Of a stretch of 64,000 bases of DNA, positions 47,630 through 47,740 are shown in pieces (within the stretch, counting starts at the first letter, position 1; each line of letters opens with the position of its first letter). The DNA lies in the NCBI GenBank assembly GCA_963457665.1, contig OY735207.1:47550196-47614195 (forward strand), given 5' to 3'. This stretch comes from Thysanoteuthis rhombus. Lineage: Eukaryota; Mollusca; Cephalopoda; Oegopsida; Thysanoteuthidae. Position numbers and translations under genes: made by a program. The notes below the pieces were generated by a model. The model had not been told where the DNA came from. It saw only the letters and a program-made list of their open reading frames with translations, and made no database searches.

Positions 47630-47740
47630 ATAATTGTGTCATCCACAGACAGCTGTTTCGTTGTATTACAACTCCTCAGTGTGGCTATAGACTATCCAAC
47701 ACCCAGTACCACGAGTTAGGATTGAATCTTTAAAAATCTT
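47630..47740 (-). mobile_element. Ribozyme-bearing SINE-like retroposon, copy 1 (5'-truncated at box B)
   Basis: The minus strand begins near the tRNA-like box B (GATTCAATCC, 47728-47719), continues through GTACTGGGTGTTGGATA into a complete hammerhead fold (47692-47638), and ends at a TA microsatellite. It shares its whole length with 49100-49215. The tRNA-like box A is missing here, so this copy is 5'-truncated, as expected of a retroposed element. Confidence 0.7.
47638..47692 (-). ncRNA. Hammerhead ribozyme motif with all core elements present
   Basis: Read 5'-3' on the minus strand: helix I 5' strand CCACA; core CTGAGGA (47679-47673); helix II GTTGT-AAT-ACAAC, five perfect pairs; core GAAA (47659-47656); helix III ACA-GC-TGT; cleavage nucleotide C at 47648; then TGTGG, which closes helix I with five pairs. 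An outer GTC/GAC pairing across an internal loop extends helix I. This matches the hammerhead consensus CUGANGA...GAAA...UH. The very short helix III is the form found in Penelope-like elements, retrozymes and schistosome satellite DNA, where it works best as a dimer. Predicted by eye; activity is untested. Confidence 0.75.

Follow-up and report, generated by a model that had tools for sequence, protein, structure and literature searches.

A type I hammerhead ribozyme and its probable retrozyme family in the cephalopod Thysanoteuthis rhombus

Hammerhead-bearing retroelements and the ribozyme in the window

Metazoan non-LTR retrozymes have been described from coral, mussel and axolotl, with units of 170-400 nt and a G+C content below 50% (PMC7229834). 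According to that description, retrozymes occur in several phyla and Penelope-like elements are named only as a strong candidate helper; its main text mentions neither octopus nor squid. The schistosome elements Sm-alpha and Sj-alpha are SINE-like and carry hammerheads, the S. mansoni element being related to tRNA-Gln (as given in PMC2770079), which weakens the view of a preliminary description of the present locus that a hammerhead in a SINE-like unit is less usual. Hammerheads of Penelope-like elements are described as usually minimal, without helix III (PMC6155905).

The locus analysed here lies in a stretch of 64,000 nucleotides from Thysanoteuthis rhombus (the window; contig OY735207.1, positions 47,550,196 to 47,614,195). 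As in the metazoan non-LTR retrozymes described in PMC7229834, its element has a type I hammerhead, a similar unit size, G+C below 50%, seamless arrays, thousands of copies and no sense frame of more than 43 residues (two units, each examined as a doubled circle). It differs from them in being mostly monomeric, often 5'-truncated and strongly tied to (TA)n. Like Sm-alpha and Sj-alpha (PMC2770079), it is a short interspersed element with a hammerhead and thousands of copies but, unlike the tRNA-Gln-related Sm-alpha, no tRNA was found in its unit. With the hammerheads of Penelope-like elements (PMC6155905) it shares residence in a retroelement, and possibly element ends at one locus, although it has a three-pair palindromic helix III.

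The minus strand of the window carries a whole type I core at 47638-47684 (Table 1), in which CUGANGA, GAAA and an NUH cut site are all present and 13 of 13 pairs match, each element lying where the preliminary description had placed it. The window core (CTGAGGA) differs from the family majority (CTGAAGA) solely at position 7, a position that is free in hammerhead cores. The palindromic helix III could permit intermolecular pairing between two molecules. At the level of sequence, the motif is confirmed as a real type I hammerhead.

A covariance-model check, proposed beforehand, came out in two parts. Rfam Hammerhead_1 aligned end to end with 47686-47641 (model positions 1-45 of 45; E = 7.4e-4, computed for 301 bases × 4227 families), but at 24.4 bits, below the gathering score of 34, so that a scan at default settings lists nothing; an E-value scan of the whole 64 kb did not list the hammerhead at 47638-47684 either. 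The ribozyme of another genomic copy (locus L054) likewise covers the full model, at 23.1 bits against the same cut-off of 34. The gathering score, which is a cut-off and not a biochemical feature, thus passes over the family: neither the window nor any of 12 loci with copies has a hammerhead that reaches it. A stem-and-core descriptor requiring 4, 4 and 3 pairs or more in its stems matched the window only at 47638-47684 and gave one match in 300 dinucleotide shuffles. Loosened to 3, 3 and 3 pairs, it gave 17 matches spread over 16 of the 300 shuffles. The minimum-energy fold of 47638-47692 is a different pairing (-15.4 kcal/mol, z = -1.9; equally good in 11 of 200 shuffles). The best fold of the 42-nt motif has -9.6, as against -5.3 when only helices I and II are formed; a 2-nt loop such as that of helix III lies outside what the program can score.

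Table 1. Positions of the ribozyme, the element copies and associated features (window coordinates unless a locus is named)
Feature	Position	Strand	Basis
Retrozyme copy 1, 5'-truncated, unit positions 209-318 of 318, 87%	47623..47726	-	Match to L009 14-117
(TA)n run, 3' side of copy 1	47539..47605	.	Read from sequence
(TA)n run, 5' side of copy 1	47750..47776	.	Read from sequence
Retrozyme copy 2, unit positions 82-313	49104..49336	-	Repeat comparison
Type I hammerhead ribozyme including flanks	47638..47686	-	Rfam match, descriptor, element-by-element check
Helix I 5' strand CCACA	47680..47684	-	Read from sequence
Core CTGAGGA	47673..47679	-	Read from sequence
Helix II GTTGT-AAT-ACAAC (GTTGT 47672-47668, loop AAT, ACAAC 47664-47660)	47660..47672	-	
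Core GAA (A15.1 at 47656)	47657..47659	-	Read from sequence
Helix III, palindrome ACAGCTGT (ACA/TGT, 3 pairs, 2-nt GC loop)	47649..47656	-	Rfam match and sequence
C17; predicted cut 47648/47647	47648..47648	-	Read from sequence
Helix I 3' strand TGTGG	47643..47647	-	Read from sequence
Broken frame with CNICLKFYIGETSRSIEK, flanked by retrozyme unit parts	L054:90-680 (C1:2664000-2665600)		
Junction sequence of element, GATGACACANTAATTAAYGCTCC			

Copy 1, which bears this ribozyme, lacks most of the unit because it is 5'-truncated. Being cut short and having a single ribozyme, it is probably an inert relic in which the ribozyme sequence is intact by happenstance. Copy 2, also on the minus strand, is 1.5 kb distant and about 79% identical to it; its ribozyme is decayed (CTGAAAA, GGAA and mismatches in stem I) and gave no hammerhead match at E up to 10. 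Elsewhere in the window, an exon at 516-758 on the plus strand resembles the catalytic domain of human PDE9A, and 33058-34511 and 37355-38804 form an inverted pair of 1.45 kb with 93% identity. A repeat of about 440 bp occurs in this pair and also at 1429-1894, 13284-13726, 31877-32280 and 57735-58187.

Copy number and ribozyme variation across the genome

The genome searched comprises 2.73 Gb in 514 contigs. A loose core pattern gave 37505 matches, compared with 2087 for the reversed control, and pools several families. With copy 2 as query there were 3103 first-look candidates; the 40 that were scored were itself and 39 others of 84-86% identity. A 22-base tag just outside the ribozyme has 3773 exact copies and its reversed control none. 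Exact matches to the 32-nt core, helices II and III included, number 2655 for GTTGT/ACAAC and 3089 for GATGT/ACATC (reversed controls 0 in both cases). These 5744 exact cores differ by one compensated pair of helix II, T-A as against A-T. When all four W..W combinations at this pair are counted the genome holds 5856, only 112 (1.9%) of them unpaired. The preliminary description had placed its hammerhead within a short retroposon; this is supported, the unit being about 300-320 nt long.

Most ribozymes of the family are decayed, in copies picked by similarity as well as in a sample chosen independently of the ribozyme (the first 40 places of the tag on contig 1). The core is intact in 7 of 29 similarity-picked copies, and core plus all 13 pairs in two. 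Among the tag-picked copies, 32 of 40 were usable in a 47-nt frame (eight were dropped for more than 14 ungapped differences); 12 of these have an intact core and one has the core and 13 pairs. Intact copies such as that of the window are therefore a minority. The canonical base is the commonest at every ribozyme site in the 27 of 40 tag-picked rows that differ from a 54-nt reference at no more than 14 positions.

The two forms of helix II mark subfamilies. Between subfamily majorities (29 and 8 copies), 23 of 222 body sites differ but only 2 of 47 ribozyme sites, both belonging to one helix II pair; the chance of both falling on one pair is about 0.005 by simple count. The divergence of the ribozyme is not significantly lower than that of the body (Fisher P = 0.27). 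A pair test was made on 24 rows picked by core and not by helix, namely the window and 23 distinct sequences of the 25 usable from 26 loci. Paired cells amounted to 91.7%, compared with 88.5% in shuffled data, and covariation to 0.116, compared with 0.063, neither value being attained in any of 500 shuffles; the best slid version reached 0.033. Two of the five measures were weak, since both-side changes were as high in 26 of 500 shuffles and further pair types in 105 of 500. Covariation in helix I consists of two single both-side changes and helix III has none. The fold of three helices, open at helix I, is supported by covariation, which is essentially one strong event, the compensated helix II pair, and not many.

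The catalytic G12 is A in 11 of 27 (54-nt frame) and 11 of 32 (47-nt frame) tag-picked copies and in 11 of 29 similarity-picked copies. Selective loss of this base was considered and rejected: mismatches at its CpG are as frequent as at body CpGs (13 of 58 and 93 of 431 cells, respectively) and its loss is thus taken as CpG decay. Counting against CpG decay is the one-sidedness of the change (11 CA and 1 TG of 29), which plain deamination does not explain; one body CpG behaves alike (11 and 1) and others are mixed. Extra constraint within copies was likewise rejected, as non-CpG sites of the core differ at 0.073 and those of the body at 0.069. Non-CpG sites of the ribozyme as a whole differ somewhat less (0.047 versus 0.069 in the body, with no significance computed).

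Other hammerhead-like motifs recur in the genome. One (family B) has the core CTGATGA-A-GGCCG...CGGCC-GAAACGTT, seen at L048:106, L049:586 and L059:4106, with almost no helix III by eye; its cores presumably resemble the minimal hammerheads of Penelope-like elements, and by eye there is no clear coding frame beside them. At each of two loci (L061:2824/3016 and L063:2885/3073) a pair of family B cores lies in opposite orientation, separated by about 190 nt. A third recurring motif, CCA-CTGATGAT-GGGA-AGAA-TCCC-GAA-ACATGTA-TGG (L004, L006, L008 and L050), is hammerhead-like with an extra base before helix II. At L007 and L051, which are the same place, a repeated CTGAAGAGAAGTAACTG..GAAAC motif showed no full hammerhead fit by eye.

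Unit structure, arrays and TA flanks

Units range from 297 to 319 nt with G+C of 0.42-0.44 (six copies), within the size and composition taken here for a metazoan non-LTR retrozyme (about 150-450 bp, G+C < 50%), a class further marked by the lack of an LTR, primer binding site and polypurine tract, by long target site duplications where present and by abundant linear and circular RNA. Monomers, full or 5'-truncated, lie beside (TA)n, and seamless head-to-tail arrays are less frequent. Tandem units, each with a hammerhead and no TA between them, were found at five loci (L119, L054, L035, L092 and L098). In the trimer at L119, ribozymes start at 107, 418 and 729, in steps of 311 nt; the first has decayed, and in the other two the core and helices II and III are intact and four of five helix I pairs match. 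A (TA)n tail follows the last unit alone. The unit-to-unit distance is 319 nt at L054 and 297 nt at L035. Arrays are the minority form: direct junctions occur in two of the 40 tag-picked copies (L092 and L098), the remaining 38 having no unit joined behind. Among the matches listed, same-strand neighbours about 300 nt apart number one for the GTTGT/ACAAC form and three for GATGT/ACATC, and one of these three pairs (289 nt apart) has TA between the copies.

The association with TA repeats is strong. Within 60 nt beyond the element, 30 of 40 copies have a TA run of at least 10, compared with 27 of 600 background windows (Fisher P = 2.6e-27), and TA precedes the 5' end in 15 of 29 copies, compared with 2 of 29 at 600 nt upstream (P = 3e-4). 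As the flanks are often (TA)n by eye, target site duplications are unreadable inside them. Of the 29 similarity-picked copies, 13 are full, starting within 9 nt of a common 5' end, and 16 are cut short at various places.

On the antisense strand of the two doubled-circle units, stop-free runs reach 86 and 123. A protein search with a repeat frame found no relative, and three scans of viral contigs gave none (0). Predicted circles are 62-67% paired (z from -0.8 to -5.0; six copies, 15 mononucleotide shuffles each), which is below the 'above 70%' given for circles of other retrozymes in PMC4918200.

Origin and proposed propagation of the element

The locus is probably a genomic copy of a metazoan non-LTR retrozyme of about 300-320 nt, with the motif as its ribozyme; such an element would spread by way of RNA circles and priming at TA repeats. 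Transcripts of head-to-tail arrays would be cut after GUC by each of their hammerheads, and the unit-length RNA set free in this way would be circularised by a host ligase. Pairing of an AU-rich box (AAUAAUUAA), about 15-25 nt past the cut, with a nicked (TA)n microsatellite would prime reverse transcription, the enzyme being supplied by some other element, possibly a Penelope-like one. An early stop would leave 5'-truncated copies such as copy 1 of the window, one turn full monomers, and more than one turn seamless dimers and trimers. This scheme is the published retrozyme model (as set out in PMC7229834), to which the TA-target step is added here. It would explain the seamless junctions, the TA on both sides and the variable 5' ends. 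The common 5' start of full-length monomers (13 of 29) is not predicted by a circle alone, and microhomology between the AT box and (TA)n is an ad hoc account of it.

A relationship with Penelope-like elements is suggested by L054. There a full unit is joined to a second (positions 5-150), which runs into a broken frame with CNICLKFYIGETSRSIEK...EHR. After the frame come unit positions 28-151, directly followed by the tail CACAATAATTA(TA)n; in this last part the ribozyme half is absent and the tail is joined at the TGAC common to the ribozyme end. We take CNICLKFYIGETSRSIEK...EHR to be GIY-YIG-like, as in the endonucleases of Penelope-like elements. No Pfam family matched the frame, a protein search found no relative and its best other match among the collected loci and the window had E = 0.28. 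Tentatively, the element may be a retrozyme whose first half and tail recur as the ends of a Penelope-like element in this genome and which inserts through pairing of the AU-rich box with TA microsatellites. It is unlikely that the unit is instead the terminal repeat of a Penelope-like element, with the monomers as solo or truncated ends and no independent retrozyme. Despite the unit parts that flank the presumed endonuclease frame and rejoin the tail, this is a single locus, the three comparisons of its frame gave no support, and the 3773 tag copies and the trimer array fit a non-autonomous unit.

The element might also be linear and SINE-like, ending in (TA)n and mobilised by a LINE; its hammerhead would then trim transcripts or be idle. 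A fixed 3' end with TA, variable 5' truncation and the common start of full-length copies suit such an element, as does a weak A-box and B-box pair at a tRNA-like distance. The best such pair in 30 copies had three mismatches in 11, four in 18 and five in one, but three or fewer mismatches were also found in 45 of 300 shuffles, so the boxes are at chance level. The pair lies at the same place, with starts about 40 nt apart as in tRNA, in 10 of the 11 three-mismatch copies and in L054; since copies are related, this recurrence counts as a single observation. No tRNA was detected in the unit by ARAGORN at 38 loci, nor did the tRNA model of Rfam match it. A tRNA-derived SINE head was accordingly rejected, leaving the SINE-like head of the preliminary description unsupported. 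With units meeting at five loci with no intervening TA tail, the SINE-like reading appears quite improbable, and metazoan retrozyme is preferred to SINE as the label for the element. A tRNA-Lys-like gene recognised by both ARAGORN and Rfam lies at L018:1080-1161, outside the retrozyme copy.

Finally, chance resemblance with no ribozyme history, for which the score below the Rfam cut-off, the one shuffle that matches the descriptor as well and the plain fold that favours another pairing might be cited, can be dismissed as practically nil because the same core has thousands of genomic relatives with a genome-wide compensated pair, in agreement with the earlier judgement that a chance occurrence in 64 kb is unlikely.

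The retrozymes of T. rhombus, compared here with others by description only, thus constitute a real new family, ordinary in kind, large and with clear anatomy. New are the family itself, its size, its tie to TA repeats and, at a single locus, an endonuclease-like fragment flanked by the first half of the unit. In mostly freely accessible literature on cephalopod hammerheads and SINEs and on links between retrozymes and microsatellites, we found neither this family nor TA targeting described. A family with thousands of copies, exact junctions and a microsatellite association makes both the helper and the choice of target testable. If ends are indeed shared with a Penelope-like element, this would provide a direct link between a retrozyme and an autonomous mover, with a testable target rule.
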